From: Wolfiporia cocos
Lineage: Eukaryota > Basidiomycota > Agaricomycetes > Polyporales > Phaeolaceae
DNA length: 64,000 nt
Assembly (NCBI GenBank): GCA_029448655.1
Contig: JACCLO010000014.1
Coordinates: forward strand, 124,001 to 188,000
Reading direction: 5' to 3'
A model generated the notes under the pieces. It did no database searches, was not told the origin of the DNA, and saw nothing but the letters and a program-made list of their open reading frames with translations. Of this stretch, positions 3,256 to 64,000 are shown piece by piece (positions within the stretch are counted from its first letter, which is position 1; every line of letters starts with the position of its first letter). The translations under genes were made by a program, and so were the position numbers.

Positions 3256-3345
3256 CTGCAATGGCTCAGTTGGCTAATTACGCTGCGATGCTGTTATTCT
3301 CATCTGCGCTAAGGTCCTTGGTTCGAATCCGGGATGTGCCATTTT
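3256..3345 (+). other. tRNA-like (SINE-head-like) sequence, right arm
   Basis: An A-box-like TGGCTCAGTTGG lies at 3262-3273 and a consensus B box GGTTCGAATCC at 3320-3330. A T-stem-compatible sequence and ATGTGCCA follow, then TTTT (3342-3345), which could stop RNA polymerase III. The A-to-B spacing fits a tRNA with a long variable arm. The 5' acceptor strand pairs poorly with the 3' strand, so this is a degenerate tRNA relic rather than a working tRNA gene. Confidence 0.5.
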
Positions 3346-5399
3346 ATTGTCACAGTAGATTAATCTGCCGCAGTTAGCAGATTAATCTGCGTGCAAACCT
3401 AGCTCGCAACTGCGATTTCTTAAGCGAAGGGCAGTTGGCAGATTAAGATAATTGACTGAAGTCCCTCCCGAGAAGACATACAACTGATCATTAGAGATCA
3501 TGCAGCAGGGCATGTTTTCTCATCTGAATGATGCAGCTGGTTTTTACGGACATCTTCTCTCATTTTAGAACTGATGTGCGCAACAGCATATCCGATGCTG
3601 TCTCAGGTTCTAGAAGGGCGCAGCACAGTGACATTAAATTTTGGAATGCTGCGGATTGGCGGGTAACACAAGCAGACATCGGTGAGATGGATCCGATGGC
3701 AGATGGCACGCCAGAGTCACCTGTCAGAAGGAAGTGGTCGTCTTGTTTGGAAAACGAAGATGGCACTATATTCAATGAAGCACGTGTGCGCAGCGTAAGC
3801 AAAGTATGCAGGGAAGTATTCCAAGATCTGCTGCGGAATAGGGTGGCACCATGGACCTGGTCGAAGGTTTCCAAGGAGGGTAGAGATGAGTTGCGTCACA
3901 GGCTGGAAGAATCATTCCCGGAGATTGGCCTCTGCGAGGGGCACTGGAAGGCGGATATGTGTGCTATAGGCCTCTATCCATCTTGGAAGCAGAAGAAGGT
4001 AAAAAAAATTAGGGCACAGTGGAATGCCGACCACCAATGTCCCGAGCTGGACATTCCACCAGCTGCACCTTCAGCTCCTCCACTGCCACGGCCACCACCT
4101 CCAGCACAGAGCAATGCAGAACTGGTGAGCTTTTGGATCAACTCATTATGGCTTCGTAAACGGTGTCTGAAAACTATTTACACGAGGTACAGGGGCCTTC
4201 TGTGCCTGAAACTCTGGCTGGAAACTCTTTGTCTTCACGAACATCTCATGTCGGGATGGAAGACGAGCGCTCCAATACCGCAAGTTCGATGCACACTACA
4301 TCGACGAATCCTGTCCTGTCTATGGCTACTGCGCAATCATCTGACTTGGTCGCTGCTCTGGTATCACAGCACTCGCCTCCACCTTCTGCTCTGAGTCCCC
4401 AGCTGCCCTCTGAGTTAGAATACGAAGTCCCCCAACTCTCAGACATACCTCTGACAGCTAGGGATGCGACTGTTGTACAGCCAGTCATCTCTGAGGCAGA
4501 AGACATTGCAGAAATGTTGCCCACTCATCGTGGAAAGCGTCCCTCAGAGCCAGACCATACCGGAGGACGGCCAAACAAACGCCACACCACACTTACGATC
4601 AGATCAGCCCTGTATGTTGCTTTCTTATACATTCCACAATTCGCTAACTACTGCAATCAGGAATCGATCTCAACGGGGCACCGTGGCTATTTCCCAGTCG
4701 CAATCAGCCACAGTGGATGCTTCCATCATGGATAACAATAACAGTGCAGGTGAGTAGTATTCCCCAGTTCAAGTTCGACTGGTTTTGAATGTGCATGTGT
4801 CACAGACTCATTTGTCAATAACCAAGAACCAGGTATGCATTCATTTATATTTTAACGATACAATTTTTGCTACATCTACAACACAGAAAATAATGAGATG
4901 ATTCAAGAACCTCGGGCTTCTATGCACATTGACGAGCAACTCGTCAGCTCCTCAGCATCCTTGACAGCCACAAAGACAGTTGCTGCTACCAAGACTTCAC
5001 GCCTTCGCCGCTACACACCTAGGAAGGCCATAAATGCAAAGTAAGCCATGAGCTGGGCTAACTTGATTATGCTAATGCTGCACAGGAATCTGTACGGGAA
5101 GGACTGGCACAACAAGAATCCTGGAGGTACACTCGAAGAGTTTGAAGCGCACTTCCGCACTTTGTCGAGAGAGGCCCTTCAGGCAAGTATTATATTCTAT
5201 GTGTCTTTTGTTGAATAATCAAGTCCATGTAGCCGTACAAGGACCTAGAGAAGGAGCAGGTATTTTTTAAAATCCCAATTTGTTCGAGGAATTGTGCTGA
5301 CTTTCATCGCAGAGGAAGCAGAAACAGGCTTAACACATTGGCTGGTGCATTTGGCAATACACGTATTAGTTCTTGGAGTCGAGTTGACTGGTTGGTAGA

Positions 5400-19827: not shown

Positions 19828-22800
19828 CTAGGCATTCGTCGGCCTCGACGGATCCTCCAAGTTCCCCTCCTCAGAGTGCCTTTGCATCCTGTTCGTTGTA
19901 GATGTCCCCGTTCCCGCTGAGGGACGGGGTCGTAGAAGTTTGCCATATGAAGTGTTGGTGGCACTCATTCTGTCGATGACCTGGTTGATTGAGCCCACAA
20001 GTTCGGCAAATGTAATCGGGACAGTCGAGGATCCAGTGGTTAGCGGAACCACATTGTCGGCACGGCTGCTCGGGTGAAGGCCTTGCTGGTACCCATAGGG
20101 AAGGGATATCGCGGAGGTATTCGTTATGTTGATACCTCCAGTGGTGCACGGCTCGGTGAAGGTTTCGTGCAGCCCATGTGGGTAGGGAGGCAGTGTCTCG
20201 TTTGTGCTCCCTCGCACCTCGCTCAAACTCCTTGCGGGTAATACTCTGCACCGAAGGAGATCGTTGAATAGGCGGTGTGCTATTCGCTCTTCGCTGTCGC
20301 GCTGGGGTAGCCCTAGGGCTTGTCGGGCGTGCAGGTGGTTCACGTCGCCCATCGCTTCCCATACCAGGAATACGCGGCGTTGAGTCTCTAACTCCTGTTC
20401 GGCGGGCTCTCTGAGTCTCGGTAGGCAATGGAAATAATACTCGATCGCGTTCCATAAAATCATACGGCCTTGCAACTCGGCGTCATTTGTTGGTGGTGAA
20501 AAAGCGGGCGGGTCGTGGTACGTATTCGGGTCGATTGGGAGTAGTGTGCTCGCGATCCTCGAAGTCGTTGAGCGCGTGTCGTAATCGTGCCGTTGTGGTG
20601 GCGGCCAGTCTGTCGATAAGTCTGTCGGTGAGTAGCTCGAGTCCCTCTCTCTGCGCTTGGATCTGCCCCTCCATTCGGACGAGGTCCTCGGTAATATTCT
20701 GGTACGAGCTGTATACGTGGGTGAGGTCCTGCGCGATATCGAAGAGGGCCGTCCAGCCATCGGCTCGGCCAGCAAAGGGTCCCTCGGCCCTGTACCAGAG
20801 TAGGGCGTGTCTGATCTGTAGATGTTGGGGGGAGTGCCTCCTCGGCAGCGTACCTCTTGGTCGTCCTTCTCTGCGACCTGTGTCGCTGTGGGGGGTTGTG
20901 GCACGGCGAGGGAGCTGGTGACGAGTCGTCGACATACTATCACTGTTCGGTTTTCGAGCGTTGGGGTTGTCCTGACTCTCGTCCTGTGGTAGTCTTTTAT
21001 CAGCTCCCTGGAATGCTCCAAGTTCCCCTCGTCTTCCCATGAGTTGTCAGCTGTGGCATAGCCTTTCCACTTGACAAAGTATTGGTGTTTCTTTCCTCGC
21101 CATCTGTCAGCCAGGATAGCTTTGACTTCGTATTCTTCCTGTCCCTTGATGATATCAGGTGGCGGCCGTAGGTAATTGGGTCCGTGCACCCTCGCTTCTC
21201 TGAACGGTTTTAGTAAGGCAGCGTGGAATACCGGATGAATTTTCCAGCTCGTTGGTAACTGCAGCCGGTATGTCGTGGGTCCCATCTTTTCTGTGATGGT
21301 GAAGGGTCCTTCCCTTTTTGGTGCCAGCTTGTTAGATTCGTATGGGATAGTTATGTTCTTTGCGTCGAGCCAAACTTTATCTCCTTTCTCGAGCTTCGGT
21401 AATTCTTGGAGGAAGCGTCCTGCCATCCTTTTCTGAGCTAGTTCGTGCGCGATGAATGCCATATTTCGCGCCTCTTTGATCTTCTTGATTCTGTCGACTG
21501 CTGCCGGGACGTTCCCTACTCTGTCGTAGTCTGGGAATCCTCTCGGGGTATACCCCAAGATTATTTCGAGTGGCGCGGGTCGATTTTCAGTTCGCCGGGT
21601 GTTGTGTGCAAACTCAACGTCAGGTAGTCGTTGTACCTATTGAAACGGGTCATTCATGCAGTAGATGTGAAGGTATACTTCGATTTGTTGGTTCATCCTT
21701 TCTGTTTGCCTGTCTGTCTGGGGGTGGTATGCTGTGCTCATCGCTGATTCCGTTCCTTGCAGTTTGCATAACTCCTTGAAAGGTTTTGATGCGAACTGTG
21801 GCCCTCTGTCTGAAATGATCTTTCGGGGGATGCCATATAGCGAGTAGATCTTTCGGTGGAATATCTCTGCCACCCCTTTGCTAGTGATTGTTTTGTCGCA
21901 AGGGGTGAGAGAGATTGCCTTGGATAGGCCATGGTCGACGATCACCGTTGATGAATCGTATCTTCCCACTCTTGGCAGATCGGTGACAAAGTCGACCGAG
22001 CATTGTGAGAAGGGGAGGGCGTCCTCCCGCGTCGGTATTGGTTGTAGTGGGGGTTTGATCGGGCTTCGATCAGGTTTCATCTGTTGACAGATTGCGCAGC
22101 CCTGGACATATTCCGCTATCATTGTTCTCATGTCAGGCCACCAAAAATGCGTTGCAACCTGTATCGTTGTTCCCCAGATTCCAGGGTGTCCGGCTGGGAT
22201 CGAGTCGTGGTATTTCGAGATGACGTCCCATCGAAGACTCTCATCTTTTGGTACGTACATCCTGCCCTTGTAGAGCAATATTCCATCTGTTTGCTGCCAA
22301 TCATCTGCGGCGGTCCTTGCGGGGAATTCGCCTGTTCCTTCTAGGGTGCGGATTGCCTGTTCCGCAGATTCATCTCGATCATTGGTGCTTTTGATTTGAT
22401 CAATGATTGGGATCTGGATCGCATGGACTACGAGCTCATCTGGGATCATGGTGATTCCCTCGTTGTCTTCGTCGCTTTCATCGAGGTGATACAACCTAGA
22501 AAGTGTGTCGGCCATGACCAGTTTTTTTCCGGGGACGTGTTGCAGCTTCAGGTTGAATTGCGAGAGGAATAGATGCCATCTCGCTTGTCGCCGATTTAGG
22601 CGCTGTGCGCTTCTCCAGTACGTCAGGTTCTGGTGATCGCTTCGGATCAAGATCCGATGCGGTGCTCCTTCTAACAGGTGCCGCCATTCTTCTAGTGCTC
22701 GGACTATTCCGAGTAGTTCGCGATCATAGATTTCGTAGTTCCGTTCTGCCGAAGTCAGGGATTGTGAGAGATATCCCACCGGCCGTTTGTGCCCTGTTTC

Positions 22801-35417: not shown

Positions 35418-37006
35418 TGTTACGGTTGTTTTGATTTTTTGAATATCGTCAGAACTCACCACTGGGCGAATACGATACAGGGACTTGTTGCGCAACCAAC
35501 TCCCCTGGCTACTCGTGACTCTACTGGGCACATCCCCAGTTGTACTAGTCTATAGGGCACGTTTCATCTTTGGCAGACCCAACTCTGCCACCGTTTCATG
35601 TTCATCGTTTGTTAGCTGATAGATGGCATTCAACCGCCATCATTCCTATCTATCGTCTCAGGTATATCACTACATACCTATCAAACGTTTGGTACTATAG
35701 CATAGATAGTATCGGTGACATCTGGGACGGACTTGACCCCTGAAACCCAACGTGGTATATAAACTAATGTACTTACTGTCGAGGCTCTTCAGCTCGACCT
35801 TGTTGTATAAACAAGAAGTCTTATACTCGTTCTCAAATGTAGGAAACTATGCTCAGTATTTCTCACTCGAGCAACCGAACGACTAAGTCCTCGAAGTGCA
35901 CACTGACTTCTTGACACAGAACTAACTTGATAAGCCTAAAGGTCTTGCTAGAAGCTGATAAGCTGGTTGTTGGGCAAGAAGGCGACTCAGTGATAGGGTC
36001 AATGGTCTGTTATAAGGACCAAAGACTAGAGAGTCTAAGCAAGTATAGTTGAGGTACTGATTGGGCCTTGCTAGGGCTTAAGTATAGCAGTGGAAACCTA
36101 AGTAGACCTTTGCAGGTACTACAAAGGGTGGTAATAAGAGTAAACGTCGAAATTAACTAGTCTGAGTCCTAAGCGACTCAGAGTACGGTATATATACATC
36201 AGGGCTAGGACCCTTGGTACTATGATGTAGGACTAATGATACCTCTATTACAGATAGCAAAGTGGTGTCATAAGTATTGCGGCCAATAGGGCCGCAGGGC
36301 ATAGGGCATACTACATAGGCATGTGATTACCAACCAGTAATGGCGGCAAGGTGATTGGGTGGTCTTAGACATGTGATGAGTGACTCATACACCGACCGGG
36401 GTATGTCTTGTGTGATGACTATGTGCTTGATAAGGTACTGGACTAGATCATGTGATCTAAGTAGACAAAAGGGTCCGTCCTTTAGTCATGAGTACATGAC
36501 CAGCTTACTAAGCGGTCTGGGCTACTCTATCAAGAGATATACCCGAAATACTGTTTGGGAGCACGTGACTTATGAATGCGCGTACTCCAGATAAGATGTG
36601 TGTGTTACTACGAGATAAGATGAGATGTAACTACAGAGATAAGATACTATCCTAGATAAGATAAGGTCACGTGCTAGATGAGGCCGTAGGGCGTCAACTA
36701 GCGTAAAGCTTTGATATTGAGCTAACAAATGGGATAAATTGCTAGAAATAGCAAGGAAATTGTAGGAAACAGATATAATCTGTGACACTTCTCGGACTTA
36801 GGCGAGTCTTATATTCTATTCGACTCGCACTTGAACAGATTATATCCTCTAACGTGTATTGGATATTAACCGATCTCCTAAGGACTTCACTTAGGACCCG
36901 AAGGCATCTAACGAGTATTTGCCTTGCATACGGCGACGTGCCTACGTGCAGAAGAACGATCTATATTCGCGACTCGAATATACGAACGGGTATTCGACCC
37001 GTAACA
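35418..37006 (+). repeat. 5' LTR of A1 (split by a solo LTR)
   Basis: It matches the 3' LTR once the 876-bp insertion at 35912-36787 is removed. It shows the same TATA-like and CAGCTCGACCTTG sequences as the other family-A LTRs. Confidence 0.85.
35912..36787 (-). mobile_element. Solo LTR (TGTCACAG family), target duplication CTTCT
   Basis: The plus strand reads TGACACAGAAC...ATCTGTGACA, with CTTCT at 35907-35911 and 36788-36792. On the minus strand a TGTATATATACC precedes the hairpin TCTGAGTC-loop-GACTCAGA (36161-36182). It has inserted into the A1 5' LTR. Confidence 0.85.
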
Positions 37007-41900: not shown

Positions 41901-44041
41901 GAGTCGGAAAGTATGACTCCATGATGGTGATTGTCGACCATGGCCTATCCAAGGCCATCTCTCTCACCCCATGCGACAAGACGATCACTAGCGAAGGGGC
42001 GGCAGAGATATTTCACCGGAAAATCTACTCGCTATATGGCATCCCCTGAAAGATCATTTCAGACAGAGGACTGCAGTTTGCATCAAAGCTTTTCAAGGAA
42101 TTATGCAAGCTGCAGGGAACAGAATCAGCGATGAGTACGGTGTACCATCCACAGACCGACGGACAGACAGAAAGAATGAATCAACAGATCGAAGTATACC
42201 TTCGCATCTATTGCATGAACGACCCTTTCCAGTGGGTAAAACGACTACCTGACGTCGAATTTGCACATAACACAAGGCGAACTGAAAATCGACCTGCGCC
42301 ACTTGAAATAATCTTGGGATACACCCCAAGAGGATTTCCAGACTACGACAGAGTAGGAAACGTCCCGGCAGCTGTCGACAGGATCAAGAAGATCAAAGAG
42401 GCACGAAAGATGGCATTCACCGCACATGAATTAGCCCAGAAAAGAATGGCAGGGCGGTTCCTCAGAGAACTGCCAAAGCTTGAGAAAGGGGATAAGGTCT
42501 GGCTCGACGCCAAGAACCTAATGATCCCCTACGAATCGAACAAACTGGCACCAAAAAGAGAAGGACCCTTCACCATCACAGAAAAGATGGGACCCACGAC
42601 ATACCGGCTGCAGTTACCGGCAAACTGGAAGATTCATCCGGTCTTCCACGCTGCCTTACTGAAACCATTCAACGAAACAAGGGTACACGGACCCAATTAC
42701 CTACGGCCGCCACCTGATATCATCAAGGGACAAGAAGAATACGAAGTCGAAGCCATCTTGGCTGACAGATGGCAAAGAAAGAAGCATCAATACTTCGTCA
42801 AGTGGAAAGGCTATGCCACGGCCGACAACTCATGGGAAGATGAGGCGAACTTGGAGCATTCCAGGGAGCTGATAAAAGACTACCACAGGACGAGAGTCAG
42901 GACAACCCCGACACTCGAAAACAGGACAGTAATAGTATGTCGACGACTCGCCACCAGCTCCCCCGCCGTACCACGACCCCCGGCGACGCAGATCGTCGAG
43001 AAGGCCGACCGCGAGGTACGCCACCAAGAAGGTACTCCCCCCAGCATCTGCAGATTAGACACACCCTCCTCTGGTACAGGGCCGAGGGACCTTTTGCTGG
43101 CCGAGCCAATGGCTGGTCGGCCCTCTTCGACATCGCGCAGGACCTCACCCACGTTTACAGCTCGTACCAGAACATCACCAAGGACCTCGTCCGAATGGAG
43201 GGGCAGATCAGAGTGCAGAGAGAGGGACTCGAGCTACTCACCGACAGACTTATCGACCGATTGGCCGCCACTACGACGGCCCGACTACGACACGCGCTCA
43301 ACGACTTCGAGGATCGCGAGCACGTTGCTCCCAATCAACCCGAATACACACCGCGACCCGCCCGCTTTTTCACCCCCGACGAACGACGCCGAGTTGCAAG
43401 GCCGTTTGATTTTATGGAGGGCGATAGAGTATTATTTCCGTTGCCTACCGAGACTCAGAGGGCCCGCCGAACAGGAGTTAGAGACCCGACGCCACGTATT
43501 TCTGGTATGGGAGGCAACGGGAGACGTGAACCACCTGCACGCCCGACGAGCCCTAGGGCTACCCCAGCGCGACAACAAAGAGCGAATAGCACACCGCCTA
43601 TTCGACGATCTCCTTCGGTGCAGAGTATTACCCGCGAGGAGTTTGAGCGAGGTGCGAGGGAGCACGAACGAGACACCGCCTCCCTACCAACATGGGCCGC
43701 ACGAAACCTCCACCGAGCCGCACACCACTGGAGGTACCAACATAACGAATACCTCCGCGATATCCCTTCCCTCCGGGTACCAGCGAGGCCCTCACCCGAG
43801 CAGCCGTGTCGACAATGTGGTTCCGCTAACCACTGGATCCTCGACTGCCCCGATTATATTTGCAGAACTTGTGGGCTCAATCAACCAGGTCATCGACAGA
43901 ATGAATGCCGCCAACACTTTGTATGGCGAACTCCTACGACCCCGTCCCTCAGCGGGAACGGCGACATCTACAACGAACAGGACGCCGAGGCACTCTGAAG
44001 AGGGGAACTTGGAAAATTCGTCGAGGCCGACGAATGCTTAG
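38901..44041 (+). pseudogene. A1 Pol: protease, dUTPase, RT, RNase H, integrase, chromodomain, tail
   Basis: The frame is open from before the gag stop. Protease shows ALIDSGAMSNLIH (about 39015). dUTPase (39385-39790) has AAGYDLYA, RSGNTLRHG, AGIIDSDYRGDVG, PGMQIAQIIF and RGEKGFGSTD; motif 2 reads GRSGN rather than RSGL. RT has VYMDDILIFS, RNase H LETDASQ, integrase GHPGIWGT...CAICQQMK, SVDFVTDLP and YHPQTDGQTERMNQQ. The chromodomain is near 42740-42870 (EYEVEAILADRW, QYFVKWKGY). A tail of about 330 residues ends at 44041. Stops at 39902, 40285 and 42047 interrupt it; the last two replace Arg (CGA/AGG) codons of D by TGA. Confidence 0.9.
42937..43998 (+). CDS. A1 overlapping ORF3, two zinc knuckles
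   Basis: The 353-aa frame starts at ATG 42937 (MSTTRHQLPRR) in the -1 frame relative to the pol tail and stays open to TGA at 43998, 43 nt before the pol end. The N-half has a conserved HLQIRHTLLWYRAEG, a Trp-rich helix and a coiled-coil-prone segment (VYSSYQNITKDLVRMEGQIR, LLTDRLIDRL). A basic Arg/Pro linker follows, then SITREEFERGAREHERD and WAARNLHRAAHHWRY. Last are two zinc knuckles at about residues 290-325: CRQCGSANHWILDC (CX2CX4HX4C) and CRTCGLNQPGHRQNEC (CX2CX6HX4C). This looks like a nucleic-acid-binding accessory protein. No described family comes to mind. How it is translated (spliced RNA, frameshift, internal start) cannot be read here. Confidence 0.65.
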   Translation: MSTTRHQLPRRTTTPGDADRREGRPRGTPPRRYSPQHLQIRHTLLWYRAEGPFAGRANGWSALFDIAQDLTHVYSSYQNITKDLVRMEGQIRVQREGLELLTDRLIDRLAATTTARLRHALNDFEDREHVAPNQPEYTPRPARFFTPDERRRVARPFDFMEGDRVLFPLPTETQRARRTGVRDPTPRISGMGGNGRREPPARPTSPRATPARQQRANSTPPIRRSPSVQSITREEFERGAREHERDTASLPTWAARNLHRAAHHWRYQHNEYLRDIPSLRVPARPSPEQPCRQCGSANHWILDCPDYICRTCGLNQPGHRQNECRQHFVWRTPTTPSLSGNGDIYNEQDAEAL

Positions 44042-46939: not shown

Positions 46940-47856
46940 TCACCCCCCTCCTAAGGCTTCATCACCCTTGATGAAATCCAAGCATCAGGGCCACTCAAAG
47001 GGCCTCGGGGTCAGGGTCATTATATCCTGCATCTCCATTGGGGAGAGGAGGCGTGGGCGGAGGGATCCAGAGCTGGTAGGACACACACTCGCCTTGACGA
47101 TGCCCTGGCTGGGATATATGGCACGTGGGGCAACAATAGTCAGGGCAGTTGAGGACCCAGTGGTAGGGGCTTCCACAGCATCGACGGGGTTTGGTTTTGG
47201 GTGGTCAAGGCAGGGATCGTGCTGAGGGGACGTTGCGGAGGTAGCTGCCAGACTCGTACCACTGATGGTGGTGGTGGACCCATATATGCTCTCAGAGCCA
47301 ACGGGGTAGGCTGAGGAGGGGGTCATCCCACCCAGGGTTGCTCCGCTCCCACTCCTCTCGGCTGATGATCTTAACTGATGGAGATCGTTGACTAACCTCG
47401 TTGTTAGCTGGGGCAGTGGGCGGCAGGGAGGTAGGCCGAGCACTGCTTGTCTCATTCGAATTGGGCATCGTTTGTGGCTTCATGAATGAGGAGCAGCACC
47501 CTCTGGTTCTCGGCATCGAGACCTGTTGGGGGTGGTCTCATGGTGAGGTACCAAAGAGCAGTATTCCATAAAATTGTACGGTTCTGTAATTTGAGCCAGT
47601 TCATTGTCCTCGAGTAGCCAGGAGGGCAAGGGGGGAAGTGGGCTTCACTGATGGGGGGAGTGACGTGGGCCCTCTTCGAGCTCATTGAATTCCTGCCGGA
47701 TCCACGAGGGCACTACTGCCCCGTGGTCAATCCACTGCTCGATATTCCTCCTGAGCTACTGCCTTTGCAAGAGGACTGTCCATTCGAGTTGGACAATACG
47801 TTCTGTGACATCTTGGTATTCATCAAAGATGGCGGTGAGCTCCTGAACGAGCTCAA

Positions 47857-48990
47857 TGACACAGATACTCTGTTACGGGTCGAATACCCGTTCGTATATA
47901 TTCGAGTTGCGAATATAGATCGTTCTTCTGCACGTAGGCGTGTTGCCGTATGCAAGGCAAATACTCGTTAGATGCCTTCAGGTCCTAAGTGAAGTCCTTA
48001 GGAGATCGGTTAATATCCAATACGCGTTAGAGGATATAATCTGTTCAAGTGCGAGTCTGATAGAATATAAGACTCGCCTAAGTCCGAGAAGTCAGTGTGC
48101 ACTTCGAGGACTTAGTCGTTCGGTTGCTCGAGTGAGAAATACTGAGCGTAGTTTCCTACGTTCGAGAACGAGTATAAGACTTCTTGTTTGTACAACAAGG
48201 TCGAGCTGAAGAGCCTCGTTAATAAGTACATGAGCTTTTATACTACACTAGGTTTTAGGGGTCAAGTTCGTCCCAGATGTCACCGCTACTATCTACGCTA
48301 TAGTACCAAACGTTTGATAAGTATGTAGTGATATATCCAAAACGATAGATAGGAATGAGGATGGCGGTTGAACGCCATCTGTCAGCTAATAAATGATAAA
48401 CATGAAACGAGGACAGAGTTGGATCTGTCAGAGTTGAAACACGCCCTATCTGCTAGTACAACTGGGGATACGCCCAGTAGCGTCACGAGTAGCCAGGGGG
48501 TTGGTTGCGCAACAAGTCCCTGTATCGTATTCGCCCGGTGGTGAGTTCTGTTGATATCGAAAAATCAAAATAACCGTAACATACTCACTGTGTCATCCCA
48601 TACGCAGTCACCAACATGCCTTCTACTAGGGATAATCACTGAGGTTTTCATAGCACCGGCCCAGCGAGGTCGCATAGTCATGGACACAGTCGAGCATGCA
48701 TGAGATAGAGTAAAAGGGGGACTAGCCCCAAGTCGACAATGTTCAGCATGAGGTTGTAAGACCTCATGCTCTGGCTTATATACATGTTCAGCACAGCGTG
48801 TAACTAAATGACTACCCTAAACTTCGGGTCCGTGCACTACGGTGTCATGTGAGTAGTCACGTGCTATGCTTACATAATCTAGAGCATGACCATCAAGTAA
48901 AATAGGTATGATGATAAGTAAATACCATGCTAATTCAACCAATAAAGTCATGTGCCCATCGGCACACCCATGTTGCAGAAATCTGTGACA
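47857..48990 (-). mobile_element. Solo LTR (TGTCACAG family), target duplication CTCAA, itself interrupted
   Basis: The plus strand reads TGACACAGATACTC...AATCTGTGACA, with CTCAA at 47852-47856 and 48991-48995. A family-A solo LTR (47871-48581) sits 14 bp from its edge. Without that insert it is about 420 bp, like the copy at 13321. The hairpin AGCATGAGGT-loop-ACCTCATGCT lies at 48745-48770. Confidence 0.85.
47871..48581 (-). mobile_element. Solo LTR of family A, target duplication TACTC
   Basis: 711 bp, TGTTACGG...CCGTAACA, flanked by TACTC (47866-47870, 48582-48586). This is the innermost of three nesting levels (family-A LTR in a TGTCACAG LTR in element E). Confidence 0.9.
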
Positions 48991-49661
48991 CTCAAATCAA
49001 TTGGTTCAGGGGGTCGGATGACCTCCGGGGGGGATATCAGATCTATGTCAGGTGAGTGCATGCCATGTGTGGAGATGGGCTTCCTCAGAGCACCCATAGG
49101 ACCTGCCTGTCTGGTAGCCCATCTGGATGGCAAGCGACCGTCACAGCATCAGGGCTGTTGGACGAGCGGATGGGTTGGAAGTAGGCTGAGGCAACGATAT
49201 ACTGTTTCTTCGACCTGATGGGTCTCAGCTTGCCTCCATCAGCTTCTGTACTCCCTCAGGAGCTCAGGGGAATTCTTCAGGTTCGCCTTGTCCTCCCAGG
49301 AGATGTCAGCAGATGGGTAACCCTTCCAGTGGACAAGGTACTGTTTCTTCCCTTGATGCTGCCTTTGGTTCAGGATGGATTTGACTTCATATTTGGCCTG
49401 GCCACTGACTAAGTCCGGGGGTGGCTTCGTATGATTGGGCCCATGCATCTTCGTCTCGTTGAATGGCTTCAGTAGCGAGGCGTGGAAGACCGGATGTATC
49501 TTCCATCGGGGTGGTAGGGCCAGTCAGTCCATCACACTCCCAAGTTTTTCGCTAATAATGAATGGCCCCTCCCTTCTTGGTGTGAGCTTCCATGATTCAT
49601 ATGGAAGATGGAAGTTTTTGGCATCAAGCCAGACCTTGTCTCCTTTGTCAAACTTGGGCAG

Positions 49662-56370: not shown

Positions 56371-56904
56371 TGTTACGATCCGTATGAATCCGTATATTTT
56401 GACGCCTCACTGGAGAGGAGGACTTAGCGTTCAACCGCTGTATTGACCGATTATTCTTAGGGTCCCTGCTCAACCACCGACCCTCGTTTCATGTACAACA
56501 ACCCTACGCCCCTAGTCTCATAGCGTATCAGGTTCTAGGTGATATCTGTTGTATATCTACAGAGCTTCTACGTTTCAGCCATTGTTGCGCTCAACCGCAG
56601 CGTTTCGGCTTAGTTATCGTAGCGTACTAACCTTATGGACTTAGTGGTAGCAGTACCAAGGACACTATGACCCCGATTACAGAATCGTAGTATAAAGACC
56701 CTGTTGTAAATACTGGCCGAGTTCCTCAGCTCGACCTTGTTGAATTACAAGGATCCTATACTCGTTCTCAAAAGACTTAAGCAATTAAGTCTGCAGCCAG
56801 TATATCGACGCTCGACTCTGCTGAGTCCGACGAGTAGTGCGCTACTCGATACGCTGAGTAACTCGACTTAACATCTCAGCTGAACGGATATTCGATCCGT
56901 AACA
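56371..56904 (+). repeat. 5' LTR of D
   Basis: 534 bp, TGTTACGATCC...GGATCGTAACA-like ends (TTCGATCCGTAACA). TATAAA lies at 56691-56696, and the predicted RNA start is at 56728 in CCTCAGCTC. Confidence 0.95.
56691..56738 (+). promoter_or_regulatory. D promoter: TATA box, RNA start and self-primer
   Basis: TATAAAG is followed 37 nt later by CTCAGCTCG. If transcription starts at the A (56728), the first 11 nt of the RNA are AGCTCGACCTT, the exact complement of 56906-56916. This is the layout known from Tf1/sushi-type retrotransposons; the start site itself is inferred. Confidence 0.55.
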
Positions 56905-56905
56905 G

Positions 56906-56916
56906 AAGGTCGAGCT
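56906..56916 (+). promoter_or_regulatory. Predicted self-primer binding site of D
   Basis: AAGGTCGAGCT lies 1 nt inside the 5' LTR and is fully complementary to the predicted first 11 nt of the RNA. No tRNA-type TGG site is present at the LTR edge. Confidence 0.6.
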
Positions 56917-56949: not shown

Positions 56950-58599
56950 ATGCAACGCTTTGACCTGGATCTCCCGAACCGGTTGATCCATCTGCTCCCC
57001 GAAGAATACAGACGCATCTACTACGAAGACAAACACGAGTGGAGAGATCCCCCCGCAGGGTTCTTTACGAAAGGAGGGTATCTCACCGTCCCGACTCCAG
57101 ACAGACTTATTCCCTCGTGGGTACAGTTACCCCCATCCTCGAACGACCCCTGGGAGCAGACGCGCGCCGCTTTCGAACGCTTTGGAAACATCACAAATTT
57201 GATGACACCGACCATCACCATATCTCAAACAGGCGATGGACAACTCGGAGGACAGACAACGAACCCCAACCCTGCAGGAGGAAGCATGGGTCTGGGAGGT
57301 ACAACCTTGGGCGGAAGTGCTGTTCCGGGAAGCAGCGGCACGAGCCAGGGCGCAGGGGGAGTGGCCAATATCCCTCCGCCAGTTAATAATCCGCTACCTG
57401 GAAATCTTAGCGGAACAAACCCCACCGGACCAGGAGCGTCTGGAGGAGGAGGAATTCCTGGAGGGGGAGGTCCCCCCGGGGGCGGAGGTCCCCCGGGCGG
57501 CACCGGTAATCCAGCAGGCGGCGCAGGAGGCAATCCAGGAGGACCGCCAGGCGGAGGAGGAGGACCACCAGGCGGAGGAGGCCCCCCAGGTGGAGGGAAC
57601 CCCGCGGGATGGGGCGGGCAGTTCGCCCCACCAGGGCGAGGGAACCGCATAAAGCTCGCCACCCCCGAACCCTTCAAGGGAGAACGAAAGAAGCTACAAC
57701 GCTTCAAGAATGATTGCAACACATGGTTCACCATGTTCGCGGCAGACTATCAGACCGACGATCAGAAAATCCTCTTCATCATGTCCTACATTCGAGGAAG
57801 CGACCGAGTAGACCAATGGAAGGAGAACTACTACGCCAAGCACACAGATCCGGCGACAGGAGCATTCGTCCTCCCCACGCTACTCCAGTTCAGTGCAGAA
57901 TTCGACGCCGCATTCGAGCCCATCGAAGAGAAACAGAAAACCAATGACGATCTCTTCGACCTCAGGCAGGAGAAGAAGAACATCGACGACTTCAATATTG
58001 AATTCGATAACCTCGTAGGGAAAACGGGACTGGACCGACAACAGTGCAACCCACTCCTCGTCACCTTGTACAAGAGAGCCATCCGACCCGCACTCGTTAC
58101 GCATATCATAAATATTGTTCCCCCCGTCATAACCCTCACGGACTGGATGAAACAAGCATCCATCAACGAGAACAATTATAACACGTTCATCAAAGGACGA
58201 GGAGACCCCAAGAAGAAACCCCAGTGGCGACCCAAGGGACCTAGCTCCCCAGCCACACCGACTCCCGTGAAAGACCCGAACGCAATGGACGTTGACCGAA
58301 TGTCCACAGAAGAGCGACGCAAGCTCCAAACTGAGGGGCGGTGCTTCAATTGTAAGGAGAAGGGCCACCTCTCCAGCAACTGCCCAAAGCGAAAGAAGAA
58401 GTCTCCTGCGAAGGGCAAAGCTCGAAAGGTAGAGGCCGTAGAGGAGGGGAACCCCGCCGCCCACACGGAAGAAGAAGACACCGAGGACGAGGACGATGGA
58501 GCCACCGCAGTGGAAGAAGCAGTTAACGCGATCAGGATTCTCAAAGCTAAGAACCCCTCGTTCCTTGCCCAGATTCTCGATGACCAGGATTTCGAATAG
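56950..58599 (+). CDS. D Gag
   Basis: 549 aa from ATG 56950 (MQRFDLDLPNRLIHLLPEEY) to the TAG at 58597. The N-terminal ~95 residues are rich in aromatic residues. Residues ~100-225 are Gly/Pro-rich and disordered (GGGGPPGG runs). The capsid-like core spans about 230-430 (KLATPEPFKGERKKLQRFKN, QKILFIMSYIRGSDRVDQW, FNIEFDNLVGKTGLDRQQ). Then come MDVDRMSTEERRK, one zinc knuckle CFNCKEKGHLSSNC (CX2CX4HX4C), a Lys-rich stretch and an acidic tail. The last residues (AKNPSFLAQILDDQDFE) are shared with A1. Pol follows in the -1 frame with a 16-nt overlap. Confidence 0.9.
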   Translation: MQRFDLDLPNRLIHLLPEEYRRIYYEDKHEWRDPPAGFFTKGGYLTVPTPDRLIPSWVQLPPSSNDPWEQTRAAFERFGNITNLMTPTITISQTGDGQLGGQTTNPNPAGGSMGLGGTTLGGSAVPGSSGTSQGAGGVANIPPPVNNPLPGNLSGTNPTGPGASGGGGIPGGGGPPGGGGPPGGTGNPAGGAGGNPGGPPGGGGGPPGGGGPPGGGNPAGWGGQFAPPGRGNRIKLATPEPFKGERKKLQRFKNDCNTWFTMFAADYQTDDQKILFIMSYIRGSDRVDQWKENYYAKHTDPATGAFVLPTLLQFSAEFDAAFEPIEEKQKTNDDLFDLRQEKKNIDDFNIEFDNLVGKTGLDRQQCNPLLVTLYKRAIRPALVTHIINIVPPVITLTDWMKQASINENNYNTFIKGRGDPKKKPQWRPKGPSSPATPTPVKDPNAMDVDRMSTEERRKLQTEGRCFNCKEKGHLSSNCPKRKKKSPAKGKARKVEAVEEGNPAAHTEEEDTEDEDDGATAVEEAVNAIRILKAKNPSFLAQILDDQDFE

Positions 58600-61500
58600 G
58601 GAGGAAGCGCACGGTCTTACCTCCCGAAAGCGCAGCTCATGTAATTACCTCGTATGAACGCGACCGGTCGCTGTTTATCCCCGTAACCCTGAAGCTGCAG
58701 AAAGCCGTGAAAGTAAACGCCCTCATCGACTCGGGAGCCATGTCCTCCCTGATCCATTCAAAACTTGTCATTCGACACCGAATCGTGACTCGACCTCTAA
58801 GAAACCCAATCACCGTCCGGAACGTCGATGGAACCACCAACAAGGACGGACAGGTAGATCGGGAAGTCTACCTCCCCATCAAATACGGAGGAAAGGAACG
58901 AAAAGTCCGCTTCCTCGTAGGAAACATCGGAAAAGAAGAAGTAATCCTCGGATACAATTGGTTGAAAAAGGAGAGCCCTGTCATCGATTGGGCAACAGGG
59001 AAGGTCGATATCGCCCCTGACAAACCAACAGAAAAAGCCCGAACGACCGACGCCATAATCCAACTCGACACTGTCAAAATGACAGTAGCCCCCGAAGGGA
59101 AGCTCCCATCGCGGGGAACCGACGGTGCCATTGGATACGACCTATACGCCTCAAAGGATGAGGAAATCACCCCTGGGGGATGGAAGGCGATCCCCACCGG
59201 GGTTCGGATGGAGATCCCGAAAGGATCTTACGGGAGGATAGCCTCACGATCGGGCCTCACGCTCAAACACGGGCTCACGGTTGGGGCAGGAGTGATCGAT
59301 CCTGACTATCGCGGAGAAGTCCAAGTCATCCTGTTCAACCAATCGACGACGCCTCATCGTATCATTCCCGGAATGCGCATTGCGCAAATAATATTTGAAC
59401 AAGCCCTCACCCCCGAAGTAGTCCAGGTAGAGGAGCTCGATGAAACAAAGAGAGGGGATGCGGGCTTTGGCTCCACCGACACTCGGCAGCCAGTGGAGGA
59501 TCCCATCTCAGACGAAGAATACCAACTACTCAGGAGATTTGTCCGAACCAAGAAACTGGTCGCCCCTAGAACCAGGAACCCAAGGCGATTCCGGCAGGAA
59601 AGCGCAGCCCTATCCCGCATACGCAAGGTGGTGACGATATCCCAGAAACTCTCCGAGACAGAGAAAAGGGGGCCCACAGAGGACGCCCTCCCCGAACACC
59701 TGAAAGACTTTGCACACGTCTTCAGCAAGAAAGCCGCAGCCGCGTTTCCCCCTTCGAGACCGTGGGACCATGCTATCGAACTAAAACCTGACTTCGTACC
59801 CCGAGACTGCAAGGTATACTCGCTGTCCCCCAGAGAACAAAAGGCCATGGACGAATTTCTGGCAGAAAATCTCGCCAAGGGATTCATCCGACCATCGAAG
59901 TCCCCCATGGCGTCCCCCGCCTTCTTCGTCCCAAAGAAAGACGGAGGGCTAAGGCCCTGCCAGGACTACCGATACCTAAACGAAGGAACGATTAAGAACG
60001 CTTATCCCCTACCCCTGATATCCGAACTCATCGAGAAGCTAAGAGGGGCAAAGGTGTTCACCAAAATGGACCTGCGAGCAGGATATAACAACGTACGGAT
60101 CCGAGAAGGCGATCAATGGAAGGGCGCATTCAAAACCAATGCTGGCCTCTACGAACCAACAGTAATGTTCTTTGGGATGTGCAATTCACCAGCAACGTTC
60201 CAGGCCATGATGAACGAGATACTAAAAGAGGAAATCGCGGAAGGATGGGTATTAGTCTACATGGACGACATCCTCATCTTCTCTCCAGACCAAACGACCC
60301 ACAGAGAGCGAGAGCGACGAGTCCTGCAAAAGCTGGCTGAAGAAAAGCTATTCATGAAACCCGAGAAGTGCGCGTTCGGGGTAGAGAGGGTAGAGTTCCT
60401 TGGACTCGTAATCGCCCCCGGCCAAATCCAGATGGACCCCGCCAAGCTCAAAGGGATCCGCGACTGGCCACCCCCGCGAAATGTCAAAGGGGTCCGCTCC
60501 TTCTTAGGGTTCGCGAACTTCTACAGAAAGTTCATCGACCACTATTCCGCGCACGCGCGACCGCTCATCGACCTCACAAAAACGGCAACGGGCACAGGGT
60601 TCAAGTGGACAGAACGAGAAAGCGAGGCGTTCGAATTCTTAAAAAGTCAGTTCGTAACAGCCCCCGCGCTGCTCCTCCCCGACAAAGAAAAACCCTTTAT
60701 CCTGGAAACCGACGCCTCCCAGTTCGCCCTCGGAGCAGTGCTCAAACAAAAAGACGATAACGGAAATGAGCGACCAGTGGGCTATCTATCACAGTCCCTC
60801 ACCCCGGCCGAACGAAACTACGAAATCTACGATCGAGAACTCTTAGGAGTGGTTCGCGCGCTGGAAGAATGGCGCCACCTTCTAGAAGGGGGTCCACATC
60901 AGATCCTGATCAGGAGCGATCACCAGAACCTTACGTATTGGCGAAGCGCCCAGAGATTGAATCGGAGGCAAGCGAGATGGCACCTGTTACTATCTCAATT
61001 CGACATACGGCTACAGCACGTCCCAGGAAAGAAGTTGGTAATGGCAGACACCCTCTCGCGCCTCATGAATTTGGACAGCTCCGACCACGACAACGAAGAC
61101 ATTCTGATGCTGCCCGATACCCTATTCATTCACGCAATCGAAGTCCCGATCATCGATCGGATCAAGATCGCGAAGTCCTTCGATCCGATCGCGGAACAGG
61201 GACTCCGCGCCCTTGAACAAGGGGAACAGCCTCCTTTAAGGACAGTAATGGAAGACTGGCAGTACACCGAAGGGGTCCTCTTGTATAAGGGGCGGATGTA
61301 CGTGCCAAGGGACCCGGGCCTGAGAAAGGACGTTATCTCAAGATATCACGACCCAATAGCGGCAGGTCACCCCGGAATTTGGGGGACGACCCTGAAGGTG
61401 CAAGAGCACTTCTGGTGGCCCGACCTGCGAAAAACCGTGGCCGAATATGTCAAAGGCTGCGCCATCTGTCAGCAGATGAAACCCGACCGACATCCGACAA

Positions 61501-63698
61501 AGGCGCCGCTGCAACCGATTCCGACCCGAAAAGACGCACTCCCCTTCTCACAATGCTCAGTGGACTTCATCACCGACCTCCCCCGGGTAGGGAAATATGA
61601 TTCGGTTATGGTCATTGTCGATCATGGGCTGTCAAAAGCGATATCCCTGACCCCATGCGATAAGACCATCACCAGTGAAGGAGCCGCCGACATATTCCAC
61701 CGGAAAATCTACTCGAAGTACGGGCTCCCTAGGAAAATCATCTCGGACCGAGGCCCCCAGTTCACCTCGAAGTTTTTCCAAGCTCTCTGCAAGCTTCTAG
61801 GGATCGACTCCGCCCTGAGTACGGCGTATCACCCACAAACCGACGGACAGACTGAGCGAATGAACCAACAAATAGAAGTCTACCTGCGTATCTACTGCAT
61901 GAGCGACCCGTACCTCTGGGCCGCCAGACTCCCAGATGTAGAATTTGCCCACAACACGCGCAGGACCGAAAGAGGTTTGGCCCCCACCGAAGTCATCATG
62001 GGGTATATTCCCCGGGGATTGCCCGAAGAAGACAACCCGACATCGGTGCCAGCCGCGGGAGAAAGGCTGAAAAGCCTCAAAAAGGCAAGGGAGAAGGCTA
62101 TCGCCGCGCACGAACTAGCCCAAAAACGAATGGCCGGACGGACCCTGCGCAATTTGCCTAAACTTAGCAAGGGAGACAAGGTGTGGCTTGATGCCAAGAA
62201 CCTCCACCTCCCGTACGAATCACGGAAGCTCGCTCCAAAAAGGGAGGGGCCGTTCACCATCGCCGAGAAGCTCGGGGCCGTCACGTACAGGCTGGCTCTG
62301 CCCCCGCGGTGGAAGATACACCCGGTCTTCCATGCCTCGCTACTGAAACCGTTCAATGAGACAAGGGTGCACGGGCCCAATTACACGAAACCACCCCCGG
62401 ACCTGGTCGAAGGGCACAAAGAGTACGAGGTCGATTCCATCCTGAATCAAAGGCAACATCGAGGGAAAAGGCAGTATCTGGTCCATTGGAAGGGCTACCC
62501 AACCGCTGACGACTCGTGGGAAGACGCAACGAACTTGAAGAATTCCCCCGACCTCCTGGAGGACTACAAAAGTCGGCGGAGGGGGAGCAGAACCCGCCAG
62601 GTCGAAGAAGTAACATGTCGACGCCTCCGCCTAGCCAACCCGACCGTCCCAGGGCGCCGACGCTGCGTTGGTCCCTCGCCGTCCGCATGGGATACCAGAC
62701 AGGCAGGTGTTACGGGTGTTCCGAGGAGGCCCACCTCCGCATCCGCCATGCGCTCACCTGGCACAGGTCCGACGTTCCCCCGGGAGGTCATCCAACCCCC
62801 TGGACCGATCGATTTGAGCTCGTACAGGAGCTCGCCGCCGTCTACGACAGCTATCAAGACGTCACCGAGCGGCTTGTCCAACTCGAACGGACAGTCCGCT
62901 GGCAGAGACAGCAGCTTGGGCGGAACATCGATCAGTGGATCGACCACCTCGGGGCGTCGACGCCATCGCGAATCCGGAGAGAGTTCAACCAAGGAGAAGA
63001 AGGCCCGCGTCGCCCGCCCCGTCAGCGAAGCCCCGTCCCTCCAATGCCCTCCTGGCTACTCGACGACGATGAATTGGCTCGAATTGCAGAACCGTACGAT
63101 TTTATGGAATACCGCTCTCTGGTACCTGACCACGCTCCCCCTGAGACCTCCGCCGCAGGAGCTCGACCTGGAGAACCGGAGAGCCCTGCTCCTCATCCAC
63201 GAAGCAGCGAACGACGCCCAGTTCGAGAGGGGCCGAGCAGCGCTAGGATTGCCACCCCGCCGCTCACTGCCCCAGCTGACGACGAAGCTGGTCGACGATC
63301 TCCGTCAGTTGAGGTCATCAGCCGAGAGGAGTTCGAGCGGGGTCGCGACGCCTGGAACGACCCCCTTCTCAGTCTACCTAGATGGCTCCGGGAGCGCATC
63401 TGGGTCCACCACCACCACCAGCGGTACGAATCCGGCGACTATCTCCGCGACGTCCCCTCCGCTCGATCCCCGCCCAGGCCATCTCAGGCAGAGCCCTGTC
63501 GAAGCTGTGGCAGCCCCTACCACTGGATCCTCGACTGCCCCGACTACCGCTGCCCCACGTGTCGGGTATCCCAGCCCGGACATCGACGAGGGGAATGCGC
63601 GCCCTACCAGCTCTGGGTCCCTCCCGCCACGCCTCCTCTCCCCGATGGAGATGCAGGGTATAACGACCCCGACCCCGAGGCCCTTTGAGTGGCCGTGA
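58584..63698 (+). CDS. D Pol: protease, dUTPase, RT, RNase H, integrase, chromodomain, tail
   Basis: Open from 58584, so about 1,700 codons; no ATG is needed if it is made by frameshifting. Residues counted from 58707: protease LIDSGAM (6-12). dUTPase with GAIGYDLYA (~140), RSGLTLKHG, AGVIDPDYRGEVQV, PGMRIAQIIF and RGDAGFGSTD (~255), all five motifs intact. RT with VYMDDILIFS (~518). RNase H with LETDASQ (~667). Integrase zinc domain GHPGIWGT...CAICQQMK (~890-920) and catalytic core SVDFITDLP, VIVDHG, STAYHPQTDGQTERMNQQ (~950-1055). Chromodomain EYEVDSILNQRQ, QYLVHWKGYP, SWEDATN (~1238-1288), which is expected to bind modified histone tails and steer integration. A ~370-residue tail to 1663 has ELQNRTILWNTALWYL conserved in A1. 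Confidence 0.95.
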   Translation, partial: PGFRIGRKRTVLPPESAAHVITSYERDRSLFIPVTLKLQKAVKVNALIDSGAMSSLIHSKLVIRHRIVTRPLRNPITVRNVDGTTNKDGQVDREVYLPIKYGGKERKVRFLVGNIGKEEVILGYNWLKKESPVIDWATGKVDIAPDKPTEKARTTDAIIQLDTVKMTVAPEGKLPSRGTDGAIGYDLYASKDEEITPGGWKAIPTGVRMEIPKGSYGRIASRSGLTLKHGLTVGAGVIDPDYRGEVQVILFNQSTTPHRIIPGMRIAQIIFEQALTPEVVQVEELDETKRGDAGFGSTDTRQPVEDPISDEEYQLLRRFVRTKKLVAPRTRNPRRFRQESAALSRIRKVVTISQKLSETEKRGPTEDALPEHLKDFAHVFSKKAAAAFPPSRPWDHAIELKPDFVPRDCKVYSLSPREQKAMDEFLAENLAKGFIRPSKSPMASPAFFVPKKDGGLRPCQDYRYLNEGTIKNAYPLPLISELIEKLRGAKVFTKMDLRAGYNNVRIREGDQWKGAFKTNAGLYEPTVMFFGMCNSPATFQAMMNEILKEEIAEGWVLVYMDDILIFSPDQTTHRERERRVLQKLAEEKLFMKPEKCAFGVERVEFLGLVIAPGQIQMDPAKLKGIRDWPPPRNVKGVRSFLGFANFYRKFIDHYSAHARPLIDLTKTATGTGFKWTERESEAFEFLKSQFVTAPALLLPDKEKPFILETDASQFALGAVLKQKDDNGNERPVGYLSQSLTPAERNYEIYDRELLGVVRALEEWRHLLEGGPHQILIRSDHQNLTYWRSAQRLNRRQARWHLLLSQFDIRLQHVPGKKLVMADTLSRLMNLDSSDHDNEDILMLPDTLFIHAIEVPIIDRIKIAKSFDPIAEQGLRALEQGEQPPLRTVMEDWQYTEGVLLYKGRMYVPRDPGLRKDVISRYHDPIAAGHPGIWGTTLKVQEHFWWPDLRKTVAEYVKGCAICQQMKPDRHPTKAPLQPIPTRKDALPFSQCSVDFITDLPRVGKYDSVMVIVDHGLSKAISLTPCDKTITSEGAADIFHRKIYSKYGLPRKIISDRGPQFTSKFFQALCKLLGIDSALSTAYHPQTDGQTERMNQQIEVYLRIYCMSDPYLWAARLPDVEFAHNTRRTERGLAPTEVIMGYIPRGLPEEDNPTSVPAAGERLKSLKKAREKAIAAHELAQKRMAGRTLRNLPKLSKGDKVWLDAKNLHLPYESRKLAPKREGPFTIAEKLGAVTYRLALPPRWKIHPVFHASLLKPFNETRVHGPNYTKPPPDLVEGHKEYEVDSILNQRQHRGKRQYLVHWKGYPTADDSWEDATNLKNSPDLLEDYKSRRRGSRTRQVEEVTCRRLRLANPTVPGRRRCVGPSPSAWDTRQAGVTGVPRRPTSASAMRSPGTGPTFPREVIQPPGPIDLSSYRSSPPSTTAIKTSPSGLSNSNGQSAGRDSSLGGTSISGSTTSGRRRHRESGESSTKEKKARVARPVSEAPSLQCPPGYSTTMNWLELQNRTILWNTALWYLTTLPLRPPPQELDLENRRALLLIHEAANDAQFERGRAALGLPPRRSLPQLTTKLVDDLRQLRSSAERSSSGVATPGTTPFSVYLDGSGSASGSTTTTSGTNPATISATSPPLDPRPGHLRQSPVEAVAAPTTGSSTAPTTAAPRVGYPSPDIDEGNARPTSSGSLPPRLLSPMEMQGITTPTPRPFEWP
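62615..63688 (+). CDS. D overlapping ORF3, two zinc knuckles
   Basis: 357 aa from ATG 62615 (MSTPPPSQPDRP), in the -1 frame relative to pol and open from as far upstream as 62516. It ends 10 nt before pol does. Landmarks shared with A1 ORF3 are HLRIRHALTWHRSD, AAVYDSYQDVTERLVQLER, RIAEPYDFME, RSPSVEVISREEFERG, HHHHQRYESGDYLRDVPS and two zinc knuckles CRSCGSPYHWILDC and CPTCRVSQPGHRRGEC (about residues 294-327). It is rich in Pro and Arg between these blocks. It is probably a nucleic-acid-binding accessory factor; function and expression mode are unknown. Protein-level similarity to A1 across diverged DNA is the main argument that it is real. Confidence 0.7.
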   Translation: MSTPPPSQPDRPRAPTLRWSLAVRMGYQTGRCYGCSEEAHLRIRHALTWHRSDVPPGGHPTPWTDRFELVQELAAVYDSYQDVTERLVQLERTVRWQRQQLGRNIDQWIDHLGASTPSRIRREFNQGEEGPRRPPRQRSPVPPMPSWLLDDDELARIAEPYDFMEYRSLVPDHAPPETSAAGARPGEPESPAPHPRSSERRPVREGPSSARIATPPLTAPADDEAGRRSPSVEVISREEFERGRDAWNDPLLSLPRWLRERIWVHHHHQRYESGDYLRDVPSARSPPRPSQAEPCRSCGSPYHWILDCPDYRCPTCRVSQPGHRRGECAPYQLWVPPATPPLPDGDAGYNDPDPEAL

Positions 63699-63743: not shown

Positions 63744-64000
63744 TGTTACGATCCGTATGAATCCGTATATTTTGACGCCTCACTGGAGAGGAGGACTTAG
63801 CGTTCAACCGCTGTATTGACCGATTATTCTTAGGGTCCCTGCTCAACCACCGACCCTCGTTTCATGTACAACAACCCTATGCCCCTAGTCTCATAGCGTA
63901 TCAGGTTCTAGGTGATATCTGTTGTATATCTACAGAGCTTCTACGTTTCAGCCATTGTTGCGCTCAACCGCAGCGTTTCGGCTTAGTTATCGTAGCGTAC
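63744..64000 (+). repeat. 3' LTR of D, first 257 bp
   Basis: One difference from 56371-56627 (T instead of C in ACCCTAYGCCCC). The window ends inside it. Confidence 0.95.

Follow-up and report, generated by a model that had tools for sequence, protein, structure and literature searches.

The 64,000-nucleotide (nt) stretch of the Wolfiporia cocos genome analyzed here (contig JACCLO010000014.1, positions 124,001 to 188,000; hereafter the 64-kb window) contains several copies of Ty3/gypsy chromoviruses whose 3' end, as far as comparisons among copies can tell, is likely to encode two proteins in overlapping frames. In these elements a third open reading frame (ORF3) lies within the 3' end of pol, its ATG just after the chromodomain codons. 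Over most of the overlap, constraint is stronger on ORF3 than on pol, and the phase of selection switches at the ORF3 ATG and, among three of the element groups (D, B, and D'), again at the borders of an internal block. ORF3 is probably a genuine gene. Translation of the pol tail is probable as well, and a block of ~55 codons in it, opposite a linker of the ORF3 protein, is under selection. The labels A, B, D, D', and E used for elements and groups were coined in this analysis.

Element D is nearly complete inside the window. Its pol encodes, in this order, protease, dUTPase, reverse transcriptase (RT), RNase H, integrase, an SH3-like domain, and a chromodomain, followed by a tail of ~370 amino acids (aa) that overlaps ORF3. 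The Pfam domain order expected of a chromovirus (protease, RT, RNase H, and integrase with a C-terminal chromodomain; Chromo E 1.1e-14) is thus present together with long terminal repeats (LTRs), and the dUTPase occupies pol residues 131-257 with the protease on one side and RT on the other. The 3' LTR starts at 63744 and continues past the window end. The two LTRs are 99.5% identical (blastn, 5' vs 3'), which indicates that D is a young insertion.

A first-pass annotation of the window had described a conserved third ORF with paired zinc knuckles overlapping the 3' end of pol, and this was borne out: the ORF3 proteins of D and A1 are homologous, and the Cys and His residues of the knuckles are invariant. 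It had also described a frame of ~355 codons lying -1 relative to pol, with a common ATG and ending within 45 nt of the pol stop, in agreement with the 357, 353, and 354 codons found in D, A1, and A2; the pol stop lies 43 nt past the ORF3 stop in A1 and shortly after it in D (63696-63698). The D frame is open from 62516 to 63688, but 62516 is merely its first GTG, and it is the ATG at 62615 that is conserved as the start. Likewise, the A2 frame is homologous but not intact, as it carries an in-frame stop at codon 151. In E, the fourth element, which lies on the minus strand, ORF3 is split by a later insertion, and the insert (47858-48990) includes sequence 94% like the A1 LTR.

The start of ORF3 is strongly conserved. 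The motif ATGTCGACGMC occurs three times in the window, exactly at the three ORF3 starts, against an expectation of 0.07. ORF3 begins with ATGTCGACG in groups A, B, and D, three point variants excepted, and with ATGTCGTCG in D'. The bases preceding ATGTCGACG are TAAC in most D, TAGC in most B, and TAGT in most A copies, so that a stop of the third frame (TAA or TAG at -4 to -2) directly precedes the ATG, and position -3 is A in every copy tallied in register (27 of 30 A, 22 of 22 D, and 6 of 6 B copies).

The 64.43-Mb, 76-contig assembly containing the window was searched for further copies, yielding at least 116 matches with the D protein and at least 115 with the A1 protein. By hand count, all 115 of the latter, which are A-type copies, were full length and 85 were free of in-frame stops; TGA accounted for 44 of the 46 in-frame stops, an excess that points to C-to-T decay at CpG (CGA). 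By identity to D the copies fall into four groups: D (97-100%), D' (~78-86%, decayed), B (~70-73% for the intact copies), and A (~42-45%). Downstream of four further chromodomain copies chosen for inspection, an A-type ORF3 was present in every case, with stops or a frame break in three. Two A-family copies, L042 and L052, have ORF3 frames open over 922 and 1101 aa (in L052 with one TGA); both carry pol-frame stops upstream, and another upstream frame enters ORF3. ORF3 was open in 55 of the 68 copies examined and both frames were open in 53. The third frame over the same region contains 7-13 stops.

Codon shuffling was used to assess this openness on five representatives, which are related, so that the tests are not independent. 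When synonymous codons were permuted so as to leave the pol protein unchanged, ORF3 was open in 0-0.07% of shuffles in all five, and with codons drawn from upstream pol in at most 0.4%; openness of ORF3 by chance was therefore rejected. In the reciprocal test, which held the ORF3 protein constant, the pol tail was open over its whole length in 0-2.2% of shuffles (P 0.006-0.12 for codons 1-150). Over the whole overlap, each frame is open beyond chance given the protein of the other. The codon usage of the ORF3 frame is also closer to that of the element's own genes than is that of the pol tail, although this signal is weak.

Selection within families was analyzed on shared variants, defined as positions with two states, each in at least two copies, which sets aside changes that arose after insertion; the sample was that tallied at the start codon. 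Over the 300 nt that precede the ATG, 43, 13, and 11 shared variants fell on pol codon positions 3, 1, and 2, respectively (all counts below follow this order), whereas inside ORF3 the numbers were 28/13/95, most of them thus at pol second positions, which are the third positions of ORF3. This phase shift has a chi-square p of 4e-12, an approximate value since variants share ancestry. By block, the counts were 17/6/47 for codons 1-150 and 6/3/38 for codons 216-end. Singletons in ORF3, counted without CpG-type changes, amounted to 14/2/17 in A, 8/7/22 in D, and 9/4/22 in B. The ratio of nonsynonymous to synonymous substitution rates (dN/dS) of ORF3 within families was 0.09 (A) and 0.13 (B); between A1 and the copy A_L067 it was 0.09 for ORF3 and 0.42 for pol, with four differences in the middle block.

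Between families, dN/dS was estimated for both frames by a custom implementation of an OLGenie-type site-class method, with bootstrap intervals. For D vs B, codons 1-150 gave 0.92 (0.57-1.62) for pol and 0.25 (0.15-0.42) for ORF3, codons 165-220 gave 0.14 (0.05-0.26) and 0.95 (0.43-2.89), and codons 221-end gave 0.90 (0.50-1.58) and 0.17 (0.09-0.30); in both frames the interval of the middle block lies entirely outside those of the two outer blocks. The same switch from ORF3 to pol and back to ORF3 was seen, without CpG-type changes, in all eight comparisons of D and B with each of four of the seven decayed D' copies, which form one lineage and thus provide one replication, not eight; an example of D vs D' has counts of 9/2/27, 11/4/2, and 8/3/29 in the three blocks. 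In steps of eight codons, the pol-dominated stretch extends from aligned codon 169 to 224; immediately ahead of it, where the ORF3 residues DFME and the pol residues ILW share bases, there is very little variation. For A vs D or B, comparisons near saturation, dN/dS was 0.27-0.41 for ORF3 overall and 0.78-0.85 for pol. Across all comparisons between families ORF3 remained at 0.25-0.41, well below the value near 1 that the first-pass annotation had set as evidence against a gene. Loss of the ATG and knuckles, which it had named as a second such sign, is not seen either, as both persist in the relatives. Its proposal that both frames are constrained in alternating blocks holds among D, B, and D', the only groups in which purifying selection on the pol tail was detected; it has to be narrowed in that this selection is limited to codons ~165-220 and ORF3 dominates elsewhere.

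Conservation of ORF3 is highest at the knuckle end, where the Cys and His residues were invariant in alignments of five (5/5) and ten (10/10) proteins, which are related copies, some of the same group. An additional CX2CX4HX4H near ORF3 residue 32 is present in D and B and, according to the alignment, lacking in A. A Pfam search with ORF3 found nothing above cut-off, with zf-CCHC just below it in A1; scores below cut-off, with E up to 1, were obtained for zf-CCHC in two of five members, zf-CCHC_2 in four, and Zn_Tnp_IS91 in all five. Predicted helices include residues 37-51, 62-126, 237-251, and 256-272, at low confidence, and the linker opposite the pol block is rich in Pro, Ser, and Ala. Env-like traits (signal peptide, transmembrane segments) were not obvious in ORF3 on inspection by eye, no predictor being applied. 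The pol block was modeled with modest confidence as four helices (mean predicted local distance difference test score, pLDDT, 64); it had no significant Pfam match, and none of 67 Foldseek matches to the model was significant (best E 1.6). The pol tail is rich in Ser, Thr, Arg, and Pro.

The suggestion that ORF3 is Gag-like stands for the knuckle only. Retrotrans_gag had no Pfam match in ORF3, and hhalign against the elements' own Gag aligned 20 knuckle columns at a probability of 0.9% and 25% identity. Since the alignment covers the knuckle alone and not a homologous capsid-nucleocapsid region, ORF3 as a Gag or Gag duplicate was rejected. The two proteins have the CCHC knuckle in common, but ORF3 has two knuckles, one of them differently spaced, and lies at the opposite end of the element.

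Relatives outside this genome are few. None of the 30 matches of a pol search extends over the tail, coverage never exceeding 29% of the chromodomain-plus-tail query, and six of the seven best foreign pols (P0006-P0012, among them P0009 of Lyophyllum shimeji) stop no more than a few residues from the chromodomain, the exception, P0010, having a tail of ~50 residues. ORF3 was not found in other fungi, which is weak evidence as the searches covered predicted proteins only, with ~8,000 candidates scored in each, and scans of viral-contig and genome-contig collections returned nothing informative. ORF3 sequence was found in five W. cocos MD-104 proteins (P0001-P0005), all of which, by eye, change over from ORF3 to the pol frame and lack the zinc knuckles; these gene models are probably garbled by the overlap. 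As constraint is stronger on ORF3 and this frame is also, weakly, the more gene-like one, ORF3 may be the older of the two; judging from these few relatives, ORF3 would have come first and pol would later have been extended over it.

Regarding expression, the ORF3 frame is closed by a stop just 3-4 codons ahead of the ATG in seven A copies and in D_L007. This position makes entry by a distant upstream frameshift unlikely, for which reason that route was rejected, and favors initiation at the ORF3 ATG. Termination-reinitiation was dropped as well, because third-frame ORFs ending at the ATG in the eight copies examined comprise 0-24 codons and contain no ATG. A subgenomic RNA, produced from an internal promoter or by splicing, would be the likeliest route. 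ORF3 would accordingly be a separate gene, translated from its own AUG after the chromodomain codons into a protein of ~355 aa. The N-terminal half of this protein would be helical and perhaps form a coiled coil, and a linker rich in Pro and Ser and free of constraint would connect it to a C-terminal part, at whose end the two CCHC knuckles are located. Pol, in turn, would have lost the stop that follows the chromodomain in related elements, and it probably continues through the same DNA as a tail overprinted on the existing ORF3, its one selected helical block facing the ORF3 linker, so that the important part of each protein would be placed where the other tolerates change. The ORF3 protein may bind element RNA or cDNA via its knuckles, as the motif suggests, and may oligomerize via its helices, acting as an accessory nucleocapsid-like factor. 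The wider proposal that ORF3 is the founding member of a new family of accessory proteins of retrotransposons, combined with an overprinted pol extension and with selection alternating between pol, ORF3, pol, and ORF3 along the strand, has in our estimation an even chance of being correct.

Several results weigh against two functional proteins arranged in this way. Within families the middle block (codons 165-215) is mixed and not pol-like (18 shared variants, 5/4/9), and the five variants of family B in codons 216-end show the opposite trend (3/1/1). In A vs D and B, again close to saturation, no clear block stood out: the middle one gave pol values of 0.64 and 0.80, with wide intervals, and ORF3 values of 0.26 and 0.27. 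Past codon 226 the pol frame is no more open than expected by chance (P 0.37-0.65 with permuted codons; P 0.07-0.15 with the pol codon pool). The structure model of ORF3 is poor (mean pLDDT 42), nucleic-acid binding is suggested by a motif whose zf-CCHC score stays below cut-off, and a PDB sequence search with ORF3 returned no relative. Finally, a scan of the 5' leader revealed no conserved donor-like site; D and A have one each, differently placed.

The alternating blocks could also be alternating exons of one protein, if short introns joined ORF3 codons 1-160 to the pol-frame block. The W. cocos gene models would fit such splicing, as P0001, P0002, and P0004 switch frame at one common Pro codon (in P0005 the switch comes a few residues before it, in P0003 after it), and in D the shared switch point is a 52-nt stretch (63094-63145) with GT, CTGAC, and AG. 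However, such models can stem from automatic gene prediction, and the GT is absent from all five B copies shown and from the D' copy L025. Moreover, pol-phase selection is already evident inside the supposed intron (5/2/1 at aligned codons 169-176; 6/2/1 at codons 177-184, which lie partly inside), and joining to pol would drop the knuckles, although they mark the best conserved end of ORF3. The intron was rejected as a conserved device for the missing GT and its overlap with pol-selected codons, and a single spliced protein is improbable.

We assign the same low likelihood to ORF3 being the sole gene in the tail, with pol non-functional past the chromodomain and its frame open by chance. The pol dN/dS of about 0.9 in both outer blocks, the chance-level openness past codon 226, the mixed middle block within families, and the closest foreign pols, most of which stop at the chromodomain, would all be expected in that case, but neither the strong pol-phase signature at codons 165-220 in the D-B, D-D', and B-D' comparisons nor the low probability of pol openness given ORF3 (at most 0.022 for the whole tail) would be. 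Even less probable is a Pol-ORF3 fusion made by -1 ribosomal frameshifting, in which the knuckles would be an appendage of pol. ORF3 does lie -1 to pol, the usual direction of frameshifting, and long frames enter ORF3 in L042 and L052. Yet these two copies carry the upstream pol-frame stops noted above, and in the others ORF3-frame stops precede the ATG by 3-62 codons, varying between subfamilies; no slippery heptamer was seen by eye near the ATG, and the ATG and the A at -3 are conserved.

Reverse-transcribing elements with extra 3' genes, and others with nested genes, are already known. The PosPlaTy3 elements of Postia placenta are likewise basidiomycete chromodomain Ty3/gypsy elements, and PosPlaTy3-5 has a dUTPase between protease and RT, as in element D (PMC2864245); the accessible text of that paper mentions no pol overlap, extra-ORF knuckles, or dual-frame selection. 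LTR retrotransposons of bdelloid rotifers also have a third gene after gag and pol, one type of which is coiled-coil (CC), a further resemblance; the ORF3s listed there are env-like, GDSL, DEDDy, CC, or TM, and the portion of the article available contains neither "overlap" nor "zinc" (PMC5408684). Hepadnaviruses, which are likewise reverse-transcribing, have a whole envelope gene of ~1,100 bp nested in the replicase (P) ORF, similar to ORF3, although it encodes an unrelated protein in a virus and not in a fungal retrotransposon (PMC5604429, accessible part). The first-pass annotation had regarded ORF3 as possibly undescribed, and full-text literature searches, mostly without subscription papers, found no description of an ORF nested in chromovirus pol; novelty is nevertheless qualified by a figure in PMC2864245, consulted in part, which draws an "additional ORF" ("add. 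ORF") of unknown function for some elements and which may correspond to ORF3. These searches found no printed case in which a chromovirus pol tail harbors an entire gene and selection is split between the frames in blocks. With more than 100 copies of graded divergence in one genome, these elements form a natural data set on the origin of overlapping genes and on how constraint is shared, and they suggest that gene prediction can garble such genes.

Table 1. Coordinates of ORF3, its parts, and associated features in the window.
Feature	Position	Strand	Remarks
ORF3, element D	62615-63688	+	357 codons, -1 relative to pol
ORF3-selected block 1	62615-63064	+	codons 1-150; pol dN/dS about 0.9, D vs B
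Predicted long ORF3 helix, coiled-coil-like	62798-62992	+	residues 62-126; low-confidence model
Pol-selected block inside ORF3	63113-63281 (approximate borders)	+	~55 codons; from selection comparisons
ORF3 zinc knuckle 1, CX2CX4HX4C	63497-63538	+	
ORF3 zinc knuckle 2, CX2CX6HX4C	63551-63598	+	
ORF3, element A1	42937-43998	+	353 codons
3' part of A1 pol	42131-44041	+	636-aa open frame overlapping A1 ORF3
ORF3, element A2	19871-20935	-	354 codons (20935-19874), one in-frame stop at codon 151
ORF3, element E	46998-49185	-	three pieces, 64-72% identical to D
5' LTR, element D	56371-56916	+	546 nt; blastn 5' vs 3' LTR
gag, element D	56950-58599	+	one CCHC knuckle
pol, element D	58707-63698	+	start is first GTG in open frame

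In the assembly, 23 high-numbered contigs (e.g., C38, C43, C35, C30, and C31; C38 has 93 kb) carry an A-family chromodomain copy with an identical score. Five of them contain a pair of copies separated by 67-79 kb, and in three a copy sits at an identical contig coordinate, raising the question whether these contigs represent a large unresolved repeat or a multi-copy replicon. Within the window, the 5' LTR of element A1 carries an insert of ~875 nt (35912-36786) that the 3' LTR lacks. An inverted repeat at 2759-2955 and 3264-3460, with 197-nt arms that are 99% complementary and 308 nt between them, is possibly a small terminal-inverted-repeat element.

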